A stretch of DNA of 29,008 nucleotides from Ectocarpus siliculosus (Eukaryota > Sar > Phaeophyceae > Ectocarpales > Ectocarpaceae): NCBI GenBank assembly GCA_000310025.1, contig FN649749.1, positions 843,036 to 872,043 on the forward strand, read 5' to 3'. Of the stretch, positions 5,713 to 24,813 are shown in pieces (the first letter of the stretch is position 1; each line of letters begins with the position of its first letter). Position numbers and translations under genes: made by a program. The notes below the pieces were generated by a model, which saw only the letters and a program-made list of their open reading frames with translations, was not told where the DNA came from and ran no database searches.

Positions 5713-8084
5713 TCATGCCACTTCCGCCTGCTGGAAAAATCTGCCAGTGATGGCCGTGATGATGTTGAGCGCGGGCAAGTTGTCGTCTAGCGGCGACTCC
5801 TGAAAAAAAAAAAAAGGGAAGGGGAAGGGGGCAAAACTTGAAAATGACAAAGGCACAAGATGAAATAGGTTCTGAAAAGGGTTCTGGGTGGATGCACTGA
5901 TGCACTGACCACCAGGCACATCTGTGGCGACACTACTGACATGGCATCCAGAAACGCGAAACTACAGGGTGGTCGACGCCTTTTTCCGCGAAGCCTAGTC
6001 ACGGATGGGCGCGCACTAGGGGGCTCTGCAACACGTTTGCCGGGGGAACAAAAGCACCAGGTTCACCATGGAGTTTGGTCTGGTTCCATCCTACATACCC
6101 CCCCATCCTGCAGTTCTGACGACTGCGTACCGCTCGAAGAACAGGGTGCACTACCTCCATCCCATCACGCTCTTCCATACTCAATAATTGCCATGACTCT
6201 CTGGCTACGCTGGTGCAGTTCGCAACAACTCTATTGGAGTTGTGGAGGAGTAGGAGGAGTAGGAGAGGGGGAGAGAGAGACGGTTTGCTCATGGTGACCT
6301 GAACGCCATAGGTGATCGGGGTACGTCTTGCCCGAGGTGATCCGAAAGACGTGGGTCATCGGTGTACCGTACCGTATACCACATAATACAACCCACCCAT
6401 ATACCCATGGTACAAGATACGACACCCGAGACGTACAAAGAAACAGAGAGGAATATATGGGTGATATACCACACAATGCAACCCACCTACATATATACCA
6501 TGGTACAAGATACGACACCCGAGACGGACAGGGAAACAGAGAGGGAGATAGAGGCTCACCACTTCTGCTCGTTGCGAGCAACATCTCCGGAGAATCTCCC
6601 TCACCAACGCCGCCGTCTCTGATTGGCGTTCCAGGGATGGACAGATCAAGGAGACATGGTCGGGGGCGGCAAGGAAAAAACAAAAAAGGACACGAAATAT
6701 TTCAAGATATTCGAAGCGAAGTAAAGCAGTAGGAGGCGATTGGCTTCAGCGAAAACTATTCCATGGCCCACTGAAAGCCCTACAGACTGGCGCCAGAATA
6801 GATGAGACGACAACATACACACTTGCTGACAACAAAAAAAACATTTGCTTTTTGTGGGAAGCAAGACAAAGGAAGGGTAAAACAAAAATAGAGAGGAAAA
6901 CACGGAGCAAGGGATCAATACCGTAGGTGACATGACATGACACAAGGTACCACACTCCCTGGAACGATTTCAAAGCTCGGTTACTCCACGACAAAATAGG
7001 ATGCGAAAAATCGTGTGGTCCGTTTTCGGAAAGCTGTCGAAGAGACGGTTCCGACGTCGCCGTTTTCGGCACCGCCGCAATTTCTGCTTTGGAGCAATCG
7101 AGCTTTTTAGATTAGAATCAGTCCCCGGGGTGTTTGGCATCTTGTGTCCGTCTCCCGTAGGTGGACGGATCGCACTGAGAGAGAGATAGCCCAAAAACAG
7201 AGCAAACAGACGTCCAAAAATACCAAAAGGCCCCAAAAGCAGAGCAAACAGACGTCCAAAAATACCAAAAGGCCCCAAAAACAGAGCAAACAGACGTCCG
7301 AAAATACCAAAATACCAAAGGCCCCGAAAGCAGAGCAAAAACAATAGTAAGCAGTCGACATGCCTCCAACGAAAGATAAGATAAGCGACAAGCCTCTCAC
7401 CGCTTCCTAAGGGTTTCTCGAGGCACGCCAGCAGGGTGTAGATCCACACGGCTCTTGCTCTGTAACGGGACAACCACGACGACAGGATTGGTGGGTTGGG
7501 GCGGGGGGGGGGGGGGATACCAATGGCGACGAGGTCATGAACAAGCCCCAACTAAACGTTCCTTCTCTCTTCTCGCTTCCTCCACCGCTAGCCAATAGCG
7601 GCAGTAGAGGCGACACACCCTCTCGCACACTATTGTAGTGTGGAGAGGATGTGTACAGCAGCATATGCATCGTCAATGGTGTAAGAACGAGCGTGTGTTG
7701 TTGGTGTGATGTGCCCCTCTCCAAGGTCGCTGCCGCTGCAAAAACAAAAAAAAGACAACGCTGAGGGAGGCCAAGGTGTGCCACGCATGCTGCGGAACCC
7801 CTCGACGTTGTGTGCCCCAAGGAGGCTTTTCCGACGGAAGGGCGAGTGGTGGCTCGTCTGAGAGTACGTCGAGAAAAAAAAAAGATTGGCAATAGCAGCA
7901 GCTAAATGTATCTACCACCACCTGCAGACGAATTGTTCGGAACGACGGGGCCCGTGTGAGTGGCAATACGACACCGTTGAGCAAAAACACACCCAAACAG
8001 GGGCCTCGATAGATGATCCGATAGATGATCCGACTCAAACCAAGAGAGAGAGAGATACAGAGAGAGAGAGAGAGAGTGGGAGGG

Positions 8085-8115
<31 letters not shown>

Positions 8116-10291
8116 GAAGGAAGATACAGAGAGAGAAGGAATAGGGAGAGAGGCAACTGATCGATTCAAGCATCACGGGCGGTCAGACGACTCTTGATTG
8201 GTAGCCCACCTCGAGAGGAGGTGGTCCCGTAGCCAATCAGCGTGAAAGGCCAGGACCTTTTGCGTCAAGACCTGGGACAAGCAGGAGGAACAAGAACAAG
8301 TAAAGAGCAGGGGGGGGAGTCGCAACAGGGATCGGGAAGTAGGGGGTGGGGGGGTCGCAACAGAGTTCGAGTAGGAGCACATATGCAAAGCATGCTCCTG
8401 TGCTATTTACGCGATCAAATTCGATGGGTTTGAGTCCCGAACCATCAACACAGCCTCACTCTACACACAGTCTCGCGAAACAGGAGAATAGCTCATCTGG
8501 AAGTGAGTGCAATCCCGCTCGTTGCTTGCTGGCCGGCTAACCTCCCTCTCAACCAAACTAGCCGCTATACGCCACCATCAGACCACCATAGCACAGCATA
8601 ACACAGCATAGCACAGCATAGCACAGCATAGCACAGCATAGGACAGCATAGGACAGCATAGCACAGCACACACACACACACACACACCTGATCGAACTGC
8701 ATGGCTAGTCGCATCGTAGGGGGGGTTCCGTGGGGGTGCGTCCGCAGCCACTCCCTCCCCGTGCGCCTCTCCGTTTGTCCAATCTGCGCGTCCCCCGAGG
8801 CCGTCGTAGATGCGGATGCCACTGTGGGTACCGCCGTTGCCGTTGTCGCCGAGGAGGGGGATCGAGGTTTGCCGTCTCGTCCCTGTTCCCTTTCCTCCTC
8901 TGCGGTTGCCTTCCCGAGAGTGGCCGAGAACATGTCGAACCTGACAAATTAGACGACAGCAGCAGCAGCAGCAAAGGCAACGGCATATTAGACGGCAGTA
9001 TGTAAATAGCAGCAACACAAAAGACACACAAGGATGGTAGTTAGCGCGATCGATGCAAAAGAAACACACACACACACACACACACACACAAGACAGCCGA
9101 CACGCGCGGTCCATGCTAGTCGAAGAAATAACACAAGAACACAACACAGTAGTTAGCGCGGTCAATGCAGCAAAACACATATACGAAGAGAGACACCCAC
9201 CAACACGTCGCTTCTCTCGAAGGGGACCCTGCAGTAGCACCAGCACAACAAAACACACTCACGGCAGATAGATCAGCCAATGCAAACACGCACACACGTC
9301 CATGACGCCTCCCTCACGGCGTCCCAGGTCAATGCCTTAATTAAACAAGCACTTCCAGCCGCACTGAGACTGGTGTACTTTCATTGCCCAGCCGGTTAGC
9401 GCGGTCGACCAAAAATACACACGCACACACATATACCCTTAGACACACAGGAGTGATTAACGAGGTCGATGCCAACAATAAAAAACACACACGTCCCTCC
9501 TGTCGGCAGAACCGCACAATTTCGTTTTTCCTCATCAAGACCGACATATTTTCAATGTGCAGCCGGCTAGCTCGGTCGACGCCAATAATAAACAACCACA
9601 CTCATACATACACACCTGTAGTTAACGCGGTCGATCATGACAAAATACAAAAACACACGCACACTCAAACACACAGTAGTTAGCGACGTCGATCATAGCA
9701 ATACAAAGAAAACACACGCACACTCAGACACACAGTAGTTAGCGACGTCGATCATAGCAAAACAAAGAAAACACACGCACACTCAGACACACAGTAGTTA
9801 GCGACGTCGATCATAGCAATACAAAGAAAACACATGCACACTCAAACACACAGTAGTTAGCGACGTCGATCATAGCAATACAAAAAAAACACACTCACAC
9901 TCAAACACACATTGGTTAGCGACGTCGATCATAACAATAGACAAAACACACACTCAGACACACAGTAGTTAGCGACGTCGATCACAACAACACGTAACTA
10001 ACAAACACACACTCAGTCCCAGTTAATGGCATTTAGAAGTGATGTTGGCGTTTTTAACCGCACTAAGATTGACGTCTTTTCATTGGTCAGCCGGTTACCG
10101 CGGTCGATGCTAACATAAAAAAAACACACACACTCAAGACACACACACGCACTCACATGGCGCTGCTCTCGACTGGTGCCGTGCAGTAGGTGCTCTGGGC
10201 GTCATCGTCCCTACGGGGATCCCTCGAGCCGCCGCCGCCGCTCACGGCTGCTTCGGAAGTGGTGGTAGTGACGGAGGCCGGGGGGGGAATG

Positions 10292-12494: not shown

Positions 12495-13041
12495 GGGAGG
12501 GGGGGGGGGGGGGGGGGGGGGCAACGGCAAAAAAAACCGGGAAAAAAGAAAATTGTGAAAACCCCCCCCCCCAAAAAAGTTTGCCCAAACCAAAAAAAAG
12601 GGCCCCGAAAAAAAAATTTTTTTATCCATCCAATCAATTAGGGGGGGCCCCAGGGAACAAAGAAACTTTTTCCAAAATTTAAAACCGGGTTACCCGGGGG
12701 AAAAAAAGGGAGGGCCTGGTTAAAAAAAGAGCCCAAAAATTTAACCCTTTAATTTTTTGGGCCCCCCGGTTTTTTTTTGGGCCCGCGGGGGAGGGGGGCC
12801 CTCCCCCCCCCGGGAAAATCCCCCATTTCATCCCGGTAAGGAACCAAAAAAGGAAAGGGTTTCCAAAACGAAAAGGGGGGGGGCAACAATAACGGGGGGG
12901 GAGCCCCCCAAGGCCCGCCCCCTGTTAGAAACCCCCCCCCCTTTCAGGGGGAACCCGGTTCCCGGGGGCAAGGCAAACCTAATTCAAAAAAAAAAAAAAA
13001 AAAAATACCCCCCTTCCCCCAAAAATTTTTGCCTGTTAAGA
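12495..13041. other. Homopolymer-distorted, probably low-quality assembled sequence
   Basis: From a poly-G run onward nearly every base occurs in stretched runs (G6-G20, C6-C10, A5-A20, T5-T9), unlike either flank. This pattern is typical of low-quality read ends placed beside a scaffold gap. Open frames here should not be trusted. The missing GEMIN2 N-terminal exons would be expected here or in the gap. Confidence 0.75.
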
Positions 13042-15175: not shown

Positions 15176-18100
15176 ATGCCTCGGCTGCTGTCGGAAGAGA
15201 TAGACGATGCCGTGCGAGAGGTCAAGTTTATAGAGGAGGCCCTGTCCGGCAGCGCCGGTTGCGACGCCGGGGGCAGCGGCTCGTACCTCGGGTTGACCGA
15301 CCGTGGGGCCTTGCTAGATTTGCTCCTTTGCGCCCGACGGCAGCTGAACCTTCTCCGAGAGAAAGAGGTAGCAATCCTCAAGTCTTCTGCTGCTGCGGGG
15401 GGGCGATCCAATCAGCACTTTGGTGAGTTATGGGCACCCCGCCCGGCGTCGTGTGACCTCTCCGTGTTGCTGCTGTGCAGAATCGAGAGTCAGCACGAAC
15501 GTTGAAGTGTGTTTGGTTCGTCGTGACCCTCATCCATGTGTATTGGTCGATGATTGTCGTGGCGACCAGCGTACGTTGCTCTGTGTCTCTGCCCGGAAGC
15601 TAGGTCTTCTGAGCATCGTTTCCGTGTCGATGGCTGTTGGGAGGAGGTGTGCACTCATTGTTGTGGCCGCTACCAATCGCCTTCCTATGAGCCATCTGGC
15701 TGGCTCTAACGCCTGGTGTGTGACATAGTCTCCCGTCTAGAGGGTTCTCGGAATCTGGAATTGTTCCACTCAAAAGAGAGCTGCAACCAAGAGACGAGGG
15801 GGGGGGGGTCTGTAGACACCAAATCAGTCCACGCCGGTAGGGCTATAGGCCAGCAAGAGCCTGGCACGGCTACGGTAGCGACGATAAGTTGACTGCTCTG
15901 TACCGACCTCAATCATCGGGTGTTGAGGAGAATCTGCGGCAGGATACGTAACAAGCCATATGCGGTGAGAAGCCGACTAGACCAGCGCGCCGAAAATACA
16001 AATTCCAGTGGCCAAAAAAATAAAAAAGGGAACGAGAGCAGCTGTTGTTGCCCGTGCCTTGTGTGCCATTCCCGGTCGAACATAAAAATGGTGTGGATAA
16101 GGAATTGTCATGTCCGTCCAGCTTGATGGTCACGTCACTCTTTTGGGTGTATGGATACATATGCGTAATAGCCGGAGCACGATGGCCGTCCGGCTGTGTC
16201 TCAGCCAGCGTCATGTGCACGGTACACGTCACCGAGCGGGACCTGAAGAATCTGAGAGCCGCTGGGCTTGGATACACCCGCAAGCACGTTAAAAAAGAAA
16301 ACTTCATTGAAGAGTTGAACTCGGAGTCGGATGACGACATGGTTGGGAAGAAATAATAGGTAGGGAGAGGAAATGTTAATGTTCCACTCTGCCTGCATTA
16401 ACGTTGCTAGATAAATCTATCAAGGACTCTTTGCTGCTGTGGAAGCGATGCATTTGTTGTGTTTTGTGTAGGAAAAAAGAAAAAAACAGGAGTTGTTCTG
16501 CGCACTGGGTTGGAAACAAGGCAGCCTGACGCGCTTCATTACTCAGTGCTCGCCTCACAGTCACCCGTTCGCAGTCAACGCTTAGAGGATGCTGTTCACC
16601 CCACTTGTTGTGAGCCTTTCTCGTAGCTTGACGGGGAATGTGCGCACGAGAGAATGCGTCGGATTGTACACAGAGTTAGCTAATTTTCCGTGGTGTCCGG
16701 TTTGAAAGTTTCAAGATTTCCCGATTGGAAGTCATGATATTTTTTTAGTCTCTACTTTTTCTCTCGTTTCGTGGCACTGCGTGGGGGGATCGACGATTTA
16801 GCGAGCGCGAATGCGAAGCTCCGCGCGAGGAGACGCTATCGAGATAATGAGATCATCCTCATCCTCGGAGGAGTTAAGTCACGATCGGTGGAGGCGCGTT
16901 CTCTCTGTCGAAGATGACGCTATCTAGCTCCGCGTCTGCAGCACGCGCCCGGAGTACTGATGAAGCCGACCAAGATGCGAAGGAGCTTGCTGCCATAACG
17001 GTGATGGCGACCCAAGCCAACTCGGCTGCCGTCCGTGAAAACAAAAACGCTTCCCTCGAAGAAGCGTTCGGGGAACGGTTCTCGAACCGTTCTTCTAGAT
17101 GCATGTGTATGTATATGCGGTTTGATTGTCACGGACCGCGGCTGAGTTGGCTTGGATCGCCACGGCCGTGGTGGCAGCAAGCTCCTGCGCATCTTGGTCG
17201 GCTTCATCAGTACTCCGGGCGCGTACTGCAGACGCGGCACGCTGACGCGGAATGTTTGTTTGGTCCACGCGCATAGCAACCCCTAAGGCCCTGATGAGGA
17301 ATATCGCTTGTTGACGAAACTTTTTAGAAAAGCAGTGCTCGCTGGTAGTCTTTGTTTGCTCTCTTTGGTAGACTGAACAAAGGGAGTGGCGACACCTCCT
17401 TGCAGAGAGGGGCCGTTAAGACGACGTCCCCGGGTAGTTCCATCCTAGGGAGTTGCAGCTCCCGCCGTGACCTGATAATCTTGCCTAGATCTACCCACCG
17501 TTCACATCCTCGCACTCACACCCCCGAACACTTCAGCCCACGGTGGCGGTTGTGCAGATAGTTGTGCAGATATGTACATGGAAATCCCCGGATACGACTT
17601 GAGCCAATTCCAGAATTCGAAGCTCGCCAACGAAGCACAGCTACATCAGATGAACAAAGGATCATCGTCGTGAAGTGAACACAATGGGGGTGTGTGCGAC
17701 ACCTCAGGGACCATGAAACGGCAACGTTCCCTGATGGTTCCATCCGAGGGAGTTGCACCCCATGCCATTCCCCGACAGCAGAGTTTCCTCCAGCAGCAAA
17801 TCTACCGCTGAGGTTTTACGTACTCCAGTCCGATAACGCAGTGGTGCCCCCCGTTTGCCCCCCGACCGTCACTGATGCTCTCGAAAAAAACGAAGAACCT
17901 TCGCCGTCGGCTGCTACGGGGGTTTGCCAACCCGGAGGAGGCGTTAGCGACACAAGAAGGCTCTCGGACGTGACGACTTGGATGTCGTGCAGGAGTCTGC
18001 TGGACAGCATGGGCGTGGGGGACATCCGTCTTGTGCACTCGGCGGTGCCAAGAGGTAAGATGACCGGCGACCAAAGGGGTGGGGGCGGAGAGGCCAGCAG

Positions 18101-21100
18101 CAGCACCCGAGAGAAGGGAAACGCGAAATTGCAAGAGATGTATGGATGGAGATGGTTTAGGAAACAAAAAAGAAAATGCACCCACACAGCTAGGATATGC
18201 GCGTGACCCCCCCTTTTTTTTGCGTTCGCGTGCGTACACCGACTATTATTCGGTTTTTCGCTCACCACAACAAAGGTACTTCGCCATAACGATGCCAAAC
18301 CTTGTTTGGCGGCTTGATATTAATAAACAGCACCCCGACAATCGATGCCACTACTATTAAGCTGGCTGCTGTAGGAGAGAAATATCAGCCTGTAGCGCCT
18401 CCCGACAGCGATCAAGTCCCTGAACCCCCCCCTCCCCGGGTGCATTCTCGGGTCAACGGCTCCATCAGCGGAGCTGAGCGTGATCGTCGACGCGTTGCAC
18501 CTGTTTCAATGGCCGGGGGCAGCCGCCGCAAGGGGCCTCGCCGCCGGCGCTCGATATCGGGCCGCCGGGGAGCAAGAACGGGCCGGGCTCCGTGCCTACC
18601 TGAACGCCATCATCCTCCCGGGGGACGCAAATGAGTGGGTCGTTCCTGTCGCGGGGGGGCAAGACCCCGGCGACGCGGCCGAAAGCGGCGGCCACGACAA
18701 TAACTCCTCCGACTTCTTGTCCGTACCGTGCGACGGTAGCTGGAGACGCCGCCGCCGCTCCGGCCATGCGGGGGACAGGTGGGCGGCGGCGACCGAGGGG
18801 GGGGGGGATACGCAAGGGGCAGTTCGCGGGGGGGTACCCTCCGCGGCGATCTGTCTCTCCGAGGCCATCAGCTGCGGGGGGCCCGCCTCCGGCTTGCGGG
18901 TGCTGTTGGAGGTGGTTCTGCCGGAGGCGACGTCGGCGTCCGCTAACGGCACCGCTATATCGAGCTGCAAGAACGGCGAAGACAACGGCTGTCGCCGTGG
19001 CAGAGGCAGCTGCCGCGGTGGGCTGTCGCCGCGTGCCGCGGGCGCGGGCGGGCAGCAGGCGGCGGGGCTGTACCGGGCGATCGGGGTCCTCGTTGCGGCG
19101 AACCGCCGGAGTCCGCTGACGAGGCCCGTGGTCGTGCTGACCGACCTGCAGGCCTCCTGGAAGCTGCTCTGGCTGGGCGGGGCGCGCTCGGGCCTGGCTC
19201 CGGCCGGAGAGGCGGCGGCGGCGGCGGAGGCGGCGGGGACGGCCTTCCACCATGCGGCAGCAACCACCGTCGACGGCGACGACGTTGACGTGTTTGTGTG
19301 GAGGATGAGTCCTCGCGATGCGATCTCGGTCGTACGCTCCATGCTGGATGAGGAGGCCGTGGGGTGGGACGGACAGGTCTCGTGGGCGCCTCGTCAAGGT
19401 GATGCTGTTGCTGCTCCTGCTGCTTCTGGGGGGGGCGGTACACACGGCGACGACGGCTTTCACGCTCTCGCATGGGCAAGCGAAGGAGCGGCAGGAAGAG
19501 GAGGAGGAGGAGGAGGTGGAGTTGCGGCAGGAGAATCAAAGGGCCCAATGCAATCGCTGAGAGACCGCCATCTCGTCGGCCGTCGCAACTTCGGCCGGCC
19601 TCATTCTTGTCCCCGCCACGGGGGCTCGCGGGCGGCTTCCTCCGCTGCTGCCGCCAACGGCGGCAGCGGCGGCGGCGGCGGGGGGGTAGAAGCCTACATG
19701 GGGGGAATCGGGCGCACCTCGAGCCCCCCGCTGGCGATGGAAATGGCGCTCCGCAGGGAGCACGCGTCTTCCTTCACGGGGAATAGCTTGCCCGGGCAGT
19801 GGACAGCAACGGGGGGTAGCTTTGGGGAGGGCGGGGAGTTCCCGCCGAGAGAGTGCCGAGCCTTTTCGGCCGGCGTTCAGCACGCTAGTGACGGGTTGGA
19901 CAGGGCGGCCGAGATGATGGGACGGCGGTCTACTTTTGCGAATCTCTACCCGCTCCATGGAGGAGGAGGAGGCGGCAACAGCGGAGGAGGAGGGGGAGCG
20001 GGGGACGAAGGGTACTCGGTTGACGATCGCTTCCGGGGGCGGCTTTCGAACGGTAATCATCATTCTACCAACGGCGGCGCAACGCCCAGAGAGCATCGGG
20101 GCGGCAGCTTCGACAACGACGGCAGAGGCTTATCAGACAACAGCAGCACTAGGCAGCGCTCCTTTACGGCCTCCTCCCCTCACACGCGACCGCTGTCACC
20201 GCCGTCTGCTCCGGTTAACCCGCTCGCCGACCCGACCGTCCTCCGGCACCTCATCCCCTTCGCCGCGGGGGACGGCTTTCTGTTCGTCGCCGGGATTTCC
20301 AGGAGCTGGAGAGATGCCTGGGGCGTCGAGCGGCCGCCGGAGACGGACACCGATGCCGCCGTGCAGTCGCCCTCTCGGCTGGGGTGGGCGAGGGCCAGTG
20401 GGCTGGGCTGGGGGCCGAGCGTGTGCGCGCGGGCTGCGTCGGGGGGGCACCTGGCGACGCTGCGGTACGCCAGGGCTCTGGGCTGCCCTTGGGACTGGAC
20501 TTGCTGCGCGCTGGCCACCACGAAGGTGCGGCATGTGTGTGTGTGTTTTTATTATTAGCATCGACCGCGCTAACCGGCTGACCAACGAAAATACGTCAGT
20601 CTCAGTGCGGGTGAAAACACAAAACACTTCTAAATGCCATTAACTGGTACCCCGTGAGGGTGTGCATGGGCGAGACTAACCTATTCTCCGGATCAAACAC
20701 AGAAACGGTAGCAACAGAAGAAAACTGCACTTGTCTACGACGGCTGCTACCTTGCACTCGATTTCGTTTTGGTGTGTGTGTGTGTGTTTGTCTTTGTTGT
20801 TGGCATCGACCGGCTTGTGAACAATGAAAAGACGGCAGTCTCAGTGCGGTCGAAAACAAAACCTGCCCGTGTGTATGTGTGTGTGTTATTTCTTAATTAG
20901 CATCCACCGCGCTAACCGGCTGACGAATGAAAAGACGCGTGTGTGTGCATGTGTGTGTATTTTTTTCTTGTTTTGCGGTGTTGATTGCGATGCTGGGGCG
21001 TGAATTGTGTGTGCGTTGTGTACGATATAGCCTAGAGCACGTTGCACCAAGGACACGGGAAGAAACGCCAAGTCATGGGTGTGTGCGGGGGGGGTTGTCC

Positions 21101-24100
21101 GTTACCGTTCATCTGCGCCAGCAGCCGGCTGACCAAACCACCAATGACGAACACACACGTGAATACAACACGGTCGGTGCCGCGCTTGCTCTGCTGCCCC
21201 GACCTTCTCTACTGTTCCTTCTAAGGGCTAACCGAATACTTGCACGCGCGTCCCGCACCGCCCCAGGCTCTTGTCCCGGTGAGCGCGATGATCCAGTGGG
21301 CCGCATCGCAGCCAGCGTCTTCCTCCTCTTCTGTGGTTGGTGACGACCCTTTGCGACCGAAGCGCCTTGAGGTGCTGAAGTGGTGCAGAGAGAACGGGTG
21401 TCCTTGGGACGAGGCTACAACATCCGAGGTGCGGAAGGGCTGTCTTCCTAGTGGCGGTGTTCGGAACAAGCGTGCACTGTGCGCGGTTTTGTTAGGCTGC
21501 TGCCCACTGCCGCTGTTGTTCTTGTTTCCCACTCAAGACCTTCCTTCGGGTGGTGTTCGGAAAAGTTCGGAAAGAGCGTGGACTGTGCTCGGTCTTCTTC
21601 TTCCCAAGAGACTGCTGCTGTTGTTCTTGTTTCCCACTCAAAACCCTTCTTCGGGTGGTGTTCGGAAAAAGCGTAGGGTGTACTCGGTTTTCTTGTTCCC
21701 AAGAGGCTGCTGCCCACTGCCGCTGTTGTTGTTTTCCCACTCGAAGCCTTTAAAGCCCGTGTGCGCTTCCAGGAGGGCCCTTCAAGTTTTTGTGGAGTAG
21801 CCGAGCTTTTTTTAATTGGACCAGGGTTTCAGTTGGCAACCTACGATACTTGTAGGCTCGTGCCGTACTGCAGGAAATTTTTCAGGCTTTTCAGCGACAG
21901 CAGCGGTGGCAGCAGTTGCTGTTGTTGAAAGTTCGTCTTGGCATGTAGCGACTGGTCTGACCGTTTGTCAGTGCCGTGTCTGCTCTACTCTTCCAACTCG
22001 ACGATGTTTTTTTTTTCGGTCACCGCTTCTCGAACTGGCAATTTTTTTTCCAGAGGACATGCACCCCCACCCGTTTAGGGGAGACACGACAGGTATTTTG
22101 AGAAAAGAAAAATACTATGTTCGTGCACAGATTCTTGTCCCCCCTTTCGCCCATCCGACCTTTCGCCCACGCACGCGGTTGGCTCTTTGTTTTGCCCTAT
22201 ACACTATCCTACCCAGGCTGCCCGGGAGGGAAACATGGAAATCTTGCGGTATGCCGTGGGCAACGGCTGCCCTAGGAACGTGCTCATGTGCGCGTACGCC
22301 GCGGCGGCGGGCCACTTGGAAACCCTCAAGTGGGCGAGGGAGGAGGAGGGCTGCGGCTGGTGGGTGTTTTTTTTTTTACGGATACCCTGATTTTTTTTGT
22401 GATCCCCATCTGGTACTCGTGAACGCTGGGGCATGCAACTTTATCGTTTCGGGGTGGGTTAGCTGATGGATCACACGGTCAACACTATTTCTTTTGTGAT
22501 CCACATCTACTCTTGAATGTCTGGGTATGTGCACTCTCTAACATTAAGGAACGCGTCGGCTGGCAGATAGCTGGATCATGATGCTATCTGTCCAATACAC
22601 ACCCATAAGTAGAATGCCTTCTCTGTTGATAACATAATTGGCGCTCCAAGACGCGTTCGAAGAGTTGCAGTGGCAAACTAAGACACGGGTGCTCTCTTTT
22701 GAAATTCATCAAAGAAAAACGTATGTTTCAACGAAGTGTTAAGCTGTCTGCAGCATTTTCTTTTTTTGTTCATCTCAAGTACCCCCCCCCCCCGCTCGTA
22801 ATAACTTTCCATTTCGAAAAAGTGTGAAGTAATACACACAATTTTTTTTTTGTCAGCTCAATTTCCCCCCTCATCTTTTTTCCCCTCAGGAACGAGGCCA
22901 CGTGTGCGTTCGCGGCAGCGGGGGGTCACTTGGAAGTCCTGGAATGGGCGAGAGAGAGGGGTGCCCCATGGGGAGAGGAGACGTGCGCAAGTGCCGCCAG
23001 GGGGGGCAGGCTCGAGGTGCGGGTTTTTAGGTTCGGCCCGGCAGCCAGCTCGGCGACCGCTCGCTTGCTGCCTTGCCGTGTATGAGGTGGAGGGATGACA
23101 CCCCCCTCTGCACCGGTTGTAGAACTCGATTGGTCCACAACCGAGCTCGTGCCCAACCCCAAAAATGGCGGTGTCGGAAACACGTCTTCGACGGCTTTCC
23201 GTCGACGTGCCGCGGGCTCTGTACGCAGCCCCATGGTTACGGAGCAATCGATCTTTCAAAGTCTAGCGGGGGTGCCATCTCTCCGCCCCCGCCTGTTTGT
23301 ATGTCGTGCGGGTCGCACTGCTTTGCTCCCGGGACTGGCAGATTGATGATGTTGCGGCGCAATTACATGCCGTAGGTGACGTAAGATACCACACCCCCTT
23401 GCACCGACCCTCAAAAGCAACGATTACTCTAGAGCAGCAAAGGGTGGCGGCACCGAAAATGGCGGCGTTGGGACCGTCTCGTCGAGAGCTTTTCGAAAAT
23501 GTATCATTTGGTTGAGATATCCTCTTCGTCATGGAGTGGTCGAGCTTTGAAGATCTGCCCAGGGGGTGTGATATCTTATGTCAGCCTACGGTAGGACGCC
23601 GAATGATTTTGTTGCAGCGCTATTGAGGGGCGGGTTATCCCCGCATTGTGGTGCGGTTTTTGTGTTCGCGGTGTGGAATTAATTGATTGTGGTTCCCGGG
23701 ACGTTGGAGAATGGAGTTTGTCTATTTTCGCTCTCTCCTGTCGTCGTAGGTCGCATAAGATAACACCCCCCCCCCTCTCGACCGATTCGACGGTCACAGC
23801 TCGAAATCGTATCGCTTGATCTTGTTCTTGGTCGTGGAGCAACGGAGATTTGATAGTCGGTCTAAGGTGGGTGCCATCTCTCAATCTCTTACGGCGCAAC
23901 AACAACAACAACAACAACAAAACACTATCCGCAACCACAAAAACAACAACAAGTCAACCCTCCGTCGTTCGTAAAACCAAGGTTTTGAAGTGGCTGAGAA
24001 AGCACGGGTGCAAGTGGGGGGCGGGGACGTGCGGCAACGCGGCCGAGGGCGGGCACTTTGACGTCCTTAAGTACGCCAGGGGGGAGGGGTGTCCGTGGAC

Positions 24101-24813
24101 CGAGGCGGCCTGCACGCTAGCCGCGAGGGAAGGTCACCTGGAGATCCTCAAGTGGTGCCGCAAGAACGGCTGCAATTGGGTCTCCGCGACGTTCAGGTGA
24201 AGCGGGCAAGGGGTTGGTTGGGCGTTCTCGCCTCTCTCTTTTGTTATAGGATTTATTGTTGAAAATTTTGGCCCGTCATTTTGTTCATTTTTTCACCGAG
24301 TGCACAAATCTGTCATGTGATGTCGTGTGATGTGATTTCACACGTACCAACTGCTGCTGTTGTGTTGCATCGTGTTCCACGTTCCGCGTTCCGCGTTTCC
24401 ATGTTCCACGTGCCGTGTTCCTCGTTTCCGCGTTCCTCATTCCACCTTTCCGCGTTCCGCGTTCTTCGTTACCACGTTCCACGTGCCGTGTTTCTTGTTC
24501 CCACGTTCCTCATTCCACGTTTCCGCACTCACGTTCCGCGTTCCGCGTTCCACGTTCCGTGTCTCGCGTTCCGTCACCGCGCAGGGCTGCCGCGGGCGTG
24601 GGAAACCAGGAGATGCTTTGTTTCCTGTTCGAGGAGGGTTGCCCCTGGGACCGCCGGACTTGCGCCGCGGCCGCGAGGAACTCGGACCTCGAGACCCTCA
24701 AGTGGTTGCGGCTCAAGGGCTGCCCGTGGGACTCGCGGGTGCTGGACGCCGCGGCGGAGGTCGGGGCGATGGACGTGTTCGAGTGGGCAATGAGCAACAA
24801 GTGCCCTTCCTGA
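15176..24813 (+). CDS. Large coiled-coil / unrecognised-domain / F-box-like / ankyrin-repeat protein, eight exons
   Basis: Exons 15176-15422, 17779-18054, 18409-20525, 21363-21428, 22217-22359, 22890-23016, 23982-24196 and 24585-24813 (stop TGA 24811-24813) sum to 3420 nt, 1139 residues, in phase throughout. Exon 1 gives SYLGLTDRGALLDLLL and a Leu/Glu/Arg coiled coil (REKEVAILKS). Exons 2-3 contain VHSAVPRAIKSLNPPLPG, and near residue 415 VVVLTDLQASWKLLWLG, weakly like strands of Crinkler-type nuclease-fold proteins; no intact catalytic motif was seen. A Gly/Ser-rich linker leads to NPLADPTVLRHLIPF near 778 (F-box-like, usual at the N-terminus of such brown-algal ankyrin proteins), then about twelve repeats of type GGHLEVLEWARERGAPW. 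Ankyrin exon joins are very firm: each restores exact repeat spacing. The link of exons 1-2 to 3 rests on phase alone; two genes (15176 part and ankyrin part) remain possible. Role unknown; ankyrin repeats bind proteins. Confidence 0.68.
16205..16356 (+). CDS. Possible terminal exon with acidic/basic tail, inside the long first intron
   Basis: After a TGTGTCTCAG acceptor the frame reads HVTERDLKNLRAAGLGYTRK, then a Lys-rich stretch and an acidic tail ELNSESDDDMVGKK before TAA (16354-16356). It looks protein-like, but I do not recognise it. Its phase also fits the donor at 15422, so exon 15176-15422 could instead splice here and make a 132-residue protein. It might also be an internal methionine-started frame. 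These alternatives cannot be separated without transcripts. Confidence 0.3.
16511..16640 (+). mobile_element. Solo arm related to the fold-back element at 13251-13690
   Basis: GCTCGCCTCACAGTCACCCG, GTTCGCAGTCAA and TTGTGAGCCTTTCTCGTAGC follow the same order as the arms at 13251-13372 and 13552-13690. It is closest to the right arm. No opposing second arm was recognised nearby. It lies in intron 15423-17778. Confidence 0.5.
16930..17237. repeat. Long inverted repeat, 113-bp arms, ~81-bp loop with nested hairpins
   Basis: Arm 16930-17042 matches the reverse complement of 17124-17237 at about 88% by eye, starting with CCGCGTCTGCAG and including a run of over 35 identical bases around GGAGTACTGATGAAGCCGAC. 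Both arms stay open outward-in as RSTDEADQDAKELAA on plus and RSTDEADQDAQELAA on minus. The loop holds two hairpins: AACGCTT/AAGCGTT (17046-17068) and AACGGTT-CTCG-AACCGTT (17074-17091). The host gene for the coding-like arm is not identified. Confidence 0.85.
17386..17755 (+). repeat. Diverged ~65-bp direct repeat, ~305-bp spacing
   Basis: Copies at 17386-17452 and 17692-17755 both run GCGACACCTC, then a gap, then GTTCCATCCxAGGGAGTTGCA. The second copy ends just before the acceptor region of exon 17779-18054, so the repeat may mark an insertion or a duplicated intron end. Confidence 0.65.
20526..20930 (+). repeat. Donor-proximal copies of the (GT)n-GCATCGACCGCGCTAACCGG repeat in the ankyrin gene
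   Basis: The intron after exon 18409-20525 starts GTGCGGCATG(TG)n, then TTTTTATTATTAGCATCGACC and on to CTTCTAAATGCCATTAACT (20526-20642). This is the same ordered unit as GEMIN2 intron positions 10156-10018. Two partial copies follow at about 20770-20860 and 20875-20940, each led by (GT)n. Confidence 0.85.
21436..21760 (+). repeat. Three-copy ~96-105-bp tandem repeat in the next ankyrin-gene intron
   Basis: Each unit contains GGTGTTCGGAA (21456, 21552, 21657), a CTGCTG / CCACTGCCGCTGTTGTT stretch and TTTCCCACTCAA. It begins within about 10 bases of the donor at 21429 and occupies the first 40% of intron 21429-22216. The rest of that intron shows nothing recognisable. Confidence 0.85.
23076..23290 (+). 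mobile_element. MITE-like element, copy 2
   Basis: The left end (CCGTGTATGAGGTGG then AGGGATGACACCCCCCTC) pairs with the right end (GGGGGTGCCATCTCTCCGCC). The core AAAATGGCGGTGTCGGAAAC then GTCTTCGACGGCTTTCCG matches copies 1 and 3. It lies in ankyrin-gene intron 23017-23981. Ends are approximate. Confidence 0.6.
23370..23591 (+). mobile_element. MITE-like element, copy 3, with near-perfect terminal inverted repeats
   Basis: The left terminus CCGTAGGTGACGTAAGATAC, followed by CACACCCCCT, matches the reverse complement of the right terminus, CCGTAGGCTGACATAAGATA then TCACACCCCCT, with about three differences in 30 positions. Length is 222 bp. The core AAAATGGCGGCGTTGGGACC is shared with copies 1 and 2. 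There is no coding sequence, and no convincing target-site duplication was seen. Confidence 0.75.
23744..23894 (+). mobile_element. MITE-like element, copy 4 (short derivative)
   Basis: The left end CGTAGGTCGCATAAGATAAC is followed by a C-run; the right end GGTGGGTGCCATCTCTCAAT then CTCTTACGG is its imperfect inverse. It keeps the GTGGAGCAACGGAGATTTGA motif of the other copies but has lost the AAAATGGCGG core, giving 151 bp. It is followed by (AAC)n at 23898-23921. Confidence 0.55.
24365..24580 (+). repeat. CGTTCC/CACGTTCC minisatellite up to the last ankyrin-exon acceptor
   Basis: About 25 degenerate units of the form CRCGTTCC, GCGTTTCC and CTCATTCC fill intron 24197-24584 from 24370 and stop a few bases before the CGCGCAG acceptor (24584). 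The array supplies the pyrimidine-rich sequence for that splice site. Confidence 0.85.

Follow-up and report, generated by a model that had tools for sequence, protein, structure and literature searches.

The window, a 29,008-nt stretch of Ectocarpus siliculosus DNA, bears two genes on opposite strands whose introns share a repeat. The identities of the hosts, a putative GEMIN2 gene on the minus strand and a putative ankyrin gene on the plus strand, are weakly supported: the SIP1/GEMIN2 match at 6973-7551(-) had an E value of 0.0082, below the Pfam cut-off, two Ank_4 matches (E 2.5e-4 at 23820-24197 and 6.3e-4 at 22079-22387) fell just below it, and the exons adjoining the two introns gave no convincing Pfam match. 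An earlier note on this DNA had described a unit of about 120 bp common to both introns, beginning at the splice donor and ending with CTTCTAAATGCCATTAACT, and had taken it either for an introner-like element carrying its own donor or for an element inserting at, or converting, donor-proximal sequence. The stretches are indeed present in both introns as described, each in the sense direction of its host. The comparison clearly showed that 89 nt are alike at 85% (20535-20623 (+) in the ankyrin intron vs. 10045-10133 (-) in the GEMIN2 intron), thus the shared sequence is real, but it is not a 120-bp unit. The CTTCTAAATGCCATTAACT motif is common to both copies but does not terminate the element: in the ankyrin intron, the first copy continues past it to ~20771 and there meets the GT tail of its neighbour, and the unit appeared to end at the motif only because the GEMIN2-intron copy stops slightly past it, near 10010. 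Nor does the repeat begin at the splice site itself in either intron: GTGCGGC and GTGAGTGC, which by eye look like ordinary intron starts, separate the donor from the GT tail.

In the ankyrin gene, the codons, read by eye in the ankyrin frame, end with ACG AAG at 20525, and the splice donor with the first intron bases GTGCGGC occupies 20526-20532 (+). Three copies of the element follow head-to-tail on the same strand, with bodies from 20558, 20803 and 20900. The GT run and T-rich stretch of the first copy (20533-20557, matched in other loci from 20531 on) represent a 3′ tail read antisense, and its body (20558-20771) is an antisense 3′ end, 5′-truncated at ~20771. The second copy (20772-20861) has its GT tail at 20772-20802 and a truncated body from 20803, and the third one (20868-20937) consists of a GT tail and a body cut off after ~38 bp. 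The GEMIN2-gene intron has an approximate extent of 8941-10156 (-), with the acceptor near 8941 by eye. Its donor-proximal copy (10008-10147, GT tail and body from 10110) is followed in the same orientation by a tandem array of 59-bp units (9600-10007), each made of a GT-rich tail and ~21 bp of element-like body (tails at 9984, 9931, 9872, 9813, 9754, 9695 and 9637), then by further truncated tails at 9582, 9472 and 9411 (within 9300-9612) and by more diverged short ones at 9283 (weak), 9168, 9116 and 9056 (within 9025-9295). With ~15 tails between 10110 and 9056, this intron thus consists largely of stacked element ends; 6 or 7 of the 15 belong to the one tandem array, leaving 8 or 9 separate tails, some of which carry bodies of just 21-26 bp by eye.

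These tails come from a scan of the window that allowed up to 6 mismatches over 17 bases and demanded a GT-rich stretch upstream. It gave 19 matches, namely the 3 in the ankyrin intron, the 15 in the GEMIN2 intron and a single one at 12974, and every match inside the two introns was in the sense direction of the host. The reversed control gave 5 matches, therefore single weak tail matches mean little; the match at 12974, lying in a low-quality stretch, was taken as spurious. The unit of the 59-bp array resembles an ultra-short element copy, and this minisatellite was apparently born from a retrotransposon tail. Elsewhere in the window, an inverted repeat at 16930-17237 (arms 16930-17050 and 17117-17237, 121 nt each, 88% complementary and 66 nt apart) is possibly a foldback or hairpin element.

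The repeat was then sought in the window's own genome (189 Mb, 492 contigs). A first search listed 44 matches at 91-100% (40 scored of 1,885 candidates). The 20-base core GCATCGACCGCGNTAACCGG occurred exactly 635 times (315 on the plus and 320 on the minus strand) and not once in the reversed control, while at up to 3 mismatches there were 3,097 occurrences vs. 12 in the control. The genome-wide search with the repeat, which the earlier note had suggested, thus revealed similarity far above chance. Rfam gave no match for the window and four loci. Our sample comprised 96 copies among 100 listed of the 635, 4 being left out as lying near another listed place: set 1 (60 copies, gene-sense, with ~500 bp upstream and 1,100 bp downstream) and set 2 (36 copies with ~500 bp upstream and ~300 bp downstream, where lengths are capped at ~300 bp). 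All 96 lie on contigs C1-C6 and are exact at the core, so the sample is biased to intact copies.

In the gene-sense direction, the left end of the copies is fixed, consisting of (GT)n, a T-rich stretch and TTATTA joined directly to GCATCGACC; the GT run and the T-rich stretch occupy some 20-45 bp before GCATCGACC. The right end is variable: the 60 copies of set 1 span 35-936 bp, and the median length across all 96, with set 2 capped at ~300 bp, is 111.5. Viewed from the opposite strand, the 60 copies have a fixed 3′ end and are truncated to graded extents at the 5′ end, which is the hallmark of non-LTR retrotransposons. The sequence shared by the two introns is the 3′ end, read antisense, of a 5′-truncated non-LTR retrotransposon. 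By short motifs, the 96 copies split into 53 of family A, 7 of B, 2 of C and 34 unassigned. In seven copies (L018, L020, L023, L024, L028, L032 and L047), the final 40-odd bases are those of the element whereas the body differs (GTCAGTGCCAGCGGG...). Hence this 3′ end is not confined to one family: these copies belong to a second family, or to a non-autonomous one, with the same terminus. In L014, L034 and L048, the left flank is shared too, in two of them over the whole 480 bp available, which means that the element is also carried along within a different repeat or a duplicated segment.

The sequences flanking the copies clearly showed a preference for GT runs. Of 89 copies, 62 had GTGTG at the truncated junction and 75 had it ahead of the tail, vs. 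a control rate of 4.9% in left flanks; for CACAC, the corresponding counts were 0/89 and 3/89 (7 of the 96 copies, with too little sequence past the right end, were left out). No target-site duplication beyond the GT emerged among these 89 copies: a score of at least 6 was reached by 14 (null 11.6%) and of at least 7 by one (null 4.1%), with no excess over mismatched flanks. Single suggestive duplications were noticed by eye, uncounted, in L007, L008 and L149. No empty insertion site was found. Extra tails in the vicinity of the 60 set 1 copies lay in the same orientation in 15 cases and in the opposite one in a single case (p 0.0005). The idea that intact copies lie upstream of older ones was unsupported, as within 400 bp 6 older tails were downstream and 7 upstream.

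The simplest account is that the element inserts at GT runs, some of which came with earlier copies. The RNA of the element would end with ...GCTAATAATAAAAACACACAC, and a likely route is target-primed reverse transcription, where the cut end ...GTGTG-3′ would pair with the CACAC tail and prime the synthesis. As a rule, synthesis would end prematurely, so that the resulting copy is short and bordered by GT on either side. Each new copy would supply a GT run as a possible next target, so that the copies, observed to stack head-to-tail in one orientation, may owe their stacking to this supply. Donor-adjacent copies would then be GT-run insertions just inside existing introns rather than products of donor recognition. 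Taken together, the results make it probable that the element is a GT-run-inserting LINE whose short 5′-truncated copies stack in one orientation, and that the donor-near copies are insertions inside existing introns.

The proximity to splice donors, which attracted attention to the repeat, was evaluated in the same sample. By eye, codons ending at a plausible donor within ~100 bp upstream were seen for 22 of the 96 copies, 12 in set 1 (L002, L008, L017, L023, L027, L032, L037, L040, L042, L049, L052 and L059) and 10 in set 2 (L119, L120, L132, L134, L135, L144, L149, L150, L152 and L153), L134 and L135 being duplicates of each other. Some copies are only tens of bases away from a splice donor, and in a few the run opens with the donor GT itself. 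A Pfam scan of 20 set 1 and 9 set 2 frames, picked for their coding look, placed above the cut-off the upstream exons of L027 (elongation factor G), L042 (Sec7-like), L052 (RRM), L059 (aldo/keto reductase, just) and L152 (GST). Those of L017, L049 and L120 had matches below the cut-off, and the L002 exon, ABC transporter-like by eye, had no Pfam match. The scan covered sense frames only, so Pfam provides no strand control.

This proximity could mean that the element endonuclease recognizes splice donors (AG/GTG) as such, the other GT runs serving as secondary sites. The 22 donor-near copies are what such recognition would predict, and in set 1 the same-strand exons are more frequent upstream of the element (14/59) than downstream (4/59; p 0.019). 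At a stricter cut-off, 16 of 94 copies were donor-near vs. 2 of 40 GT runs without the element (40 of 100 listed of 418 runs, one of which, L101, carries an element), a difference that is not significant (p 0.09); the donor effect may therefore stem, in part or entirely, from the GT runs. Against donor recognition, the GT run shows no preference for a preceding AG (a G just ahead of the run follows an A in 9 of 21 copies vs. 6 of 16 GT-run controls), and most copies have no recognizable donor nearby. We therefore regard recognition of donors as such as improbable. A codon-model donor finder, applied to the window and 22 other loci, detected GTGTG in the first 60 bases of none of 20 candidate donors, many of which look false, vs. 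5.6% of random 60-mers, so a general GT-richness of donors is unsupported.

The orientation of the copies relative to exons was compared near exons only, this being the scope of the test for copies in both orientations or in intergenic DNA. Open-frame length upstream gave no sense excess in 60 loci (mean longest frame of 64 codons in sense, 77 in antisense). As long frames arise by chance at this base composition, codon scoring replaced this measure. A codon-like stretch 30-230 bp upstream was found on the same strand in 21 of 94 copies and on the opposite strand in 4 (p 0.0009; 2 of the 96 were dropped for runs of N). The exons used to train the codon model include L027 and L042, both among the 21, and without them the counts are 19 vs. 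4. By set, the counts were 14 vs. 1 in set 1 and 7 vs. 3 in set 2, the latter, taken alone as a replicate, showing no significant bias (p 0.34). The suggestion that the element inserts at donor-proximal sequence thus holds in part: the donor-near copies and the sense excess speak for it, whereas significance was reached neither in the replicate nor in the comparison with GT runs.

Beside exons, then, the surviving copies would mostly have their GT side on the sense strand. TTTATT, which is AATAAA on the other strand, is present in 46 of 96 tails vs. 9 of 948 control stretches. Copies in the opposite orientation would place the AATAAA of the element in the pre-mRNA, and selection should remove them; selection against premature polyadenylation would be a sufficient cause of the strand bias.

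Longer copies, reached by walking from the longest ones, carry a reverse transcriptase on the antisense strand (RVT_1, Pfam E 6.5e-10, above the cut-off, L061:1710-2321(-)), with the motifs GVQQGCNLG and YVDD recognized by eye. Behind it, again by eye, lie a cysteine/histidine-containing stretch and then MDLVIPPG...ILIDVTIVNP, which we read as a putative restriction-like endonuclease. This putative endonuclease had no Pfam match and no PDB sequence match, and two structure predictions, with mean pLDDT of 31.1 and 32.7, were unusable for a fold search. No uninterrupted full-length protein was read among the copies. Judging by eye from these motifs, the element probably belongs among the lineages with a restriction-like endonuclease.

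The element might instead be a Penelope-like retroelement of the Chlamys group. Such elements combine a GIY-YIG endonuclease with a Penelope-type reverse transcriptase and tend to sit in CA repeats, and head-to-tail partial copies, as found here, fit such an origin. In the available part of the Ectocarpus account, PLE/Chlamys (4,782 copies, 0.43%) is also close in copy number and coverage to LINE/CRE (4,821 copies, 0.42% of the genome) (PMC12477816). However, GVQQGCNLG is LINE-like by eye, a long C-terminal part follows the reverse transcriptase, and no GIY-YIG match was obtained by Pfam in the five frames scanned, which makes a Penelope-like origin quite doubtful.

As a GT-run-inserting LINE, the element can be likened by description to several known systems. 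The Ectocarpus LINE/CRE elements, at ~172 bp per copy as computed on a genome of ~197 Mb, likewise comprise thousands of very short LINE copies, but the account, in its available part, names neither a target nor donor proximity (PMC12477816). The Togen families are NeSL-related non-LTR retrotransposons specific for (TG)n microsatellites, resembling our element, according to the available description, in the target and, for our element by eye, in kinship to lineages with a restriction-like endonuclease, but they are fish elements (PMC4640811). Utopia, a non-LTR retrotransposon present in oomycetes, has one zinc finger and a C-terminal restriction-like endonuclease (in our element, the endonuclease is a by-eye reading), and some of its families lack target-site duplications; unlike the element here, it is described in the portions available as targeting U2 snRNA genes at low copy number (PMC4640811, PMC5348765). 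The literature search, with most subscription journals outside it, returned no title on donor-proximal, GT-targeted LINEs, nor on introners in brown algae. Overall, the element is probably a LINE aimed at GT runs, with truncated ends stacked in introns in one orientation and fairly often near donors.

The first proposal for the repeat, an introner-like element, implies that an exon acquires a new intron when the element inserts into it; GTGTG in the element would then act as the donor and TTTTTATTATTAG/C perhaps as the acceptor. Introners are mobile and tied to splice sites, and some families carry or co-opt a donor, as stated in the accessible part of the source (PMC9860276). The donor-proximal position common to many copies agrees with this proposal, and in L008, L144, L149 and L153 the exon codons directly adjoin the GT run, so the tail, or the GT run that was entered, may serve as a donor. 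However, introners, as portrayed there, create introns by exon insertion (PMC9860276), whereas here the copies end by truncation and the acceptors, by eye, lie elsewhere. The right ends are graded truncations, not splice ends, and the next exon begins ~480-500 bp past the start of the element body in L002 and L017 (by eye) and ~886 bp past it in the EF-G gene (L027; GVESVLSNG...), beyond further element pieces, so in the latter the acceptor is far outside the element and an introner is unlikely. No coincidence of element and intron boundaries was observed for the right ends of 60 copies and the introns of L002, L017 and L027 (next exons ~480-890 bp on), and most loci have the element without a recognizable exon nearby. 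An element that makes introns and brings its own donor is thus not supported by these data, and we consider the introner reading very unlikely. A further alternative, in which the repeats form a satellite or microsatellite family and spread without retrotransposition, through gene conversion or recombination, accords with the 59-bp tandem array in the GEMIN2 intron, but it is hardly credible in view of the thousands of dispersed copies with one fixed and one graded end and is already contradicted by the reverse transcriptase encoded in the long copies.

The preferred reading, a LINE inserting at GT runs, bears on intron length. In the accessible part of the Ectocarpus account, introns are long (median 524 bp on autosomes, intronic content ~46%), and LINEs are frequent in them and often 5′-truncated (PMC12477816). 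In our data, shortened copies accumulate in introns, arranged head-to-tail, and some introns may thus have lengthened through successive insertions of a single element. A bolder scheme, which we put forward tentatively and hold to be rather unlikely as a whole, is that a GT-run retrotransposon lands at splice donors and re-targets its own tails, that introns are built and lengthened serially from the 5′ end, that some are spliced from the GT run of the element, and that a share of the intron length of the genome has so arisen. It is still an open question why introns are long in some lineages, and an element that targets GT runs, leaves a usable donor and supplies its own next target would offer a concrete mechanism of intron growth that is amenable to testing. 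It follows, too, that introns with a common donor-proximal repeat need not be introners. A search among the ankyrin paralogues (L155-L158) and for a paralogue of the L002 exon gave no answer on the age of the introns relative to the insertions. A minor observation concerns L149: the exon end AGAAGATTCTTCGxCAG and a GT-rich start appear a second time on the downstream side of a diverged copy, at ~+120 to +150 from the core, and may be a duplication of the exon end and donor.
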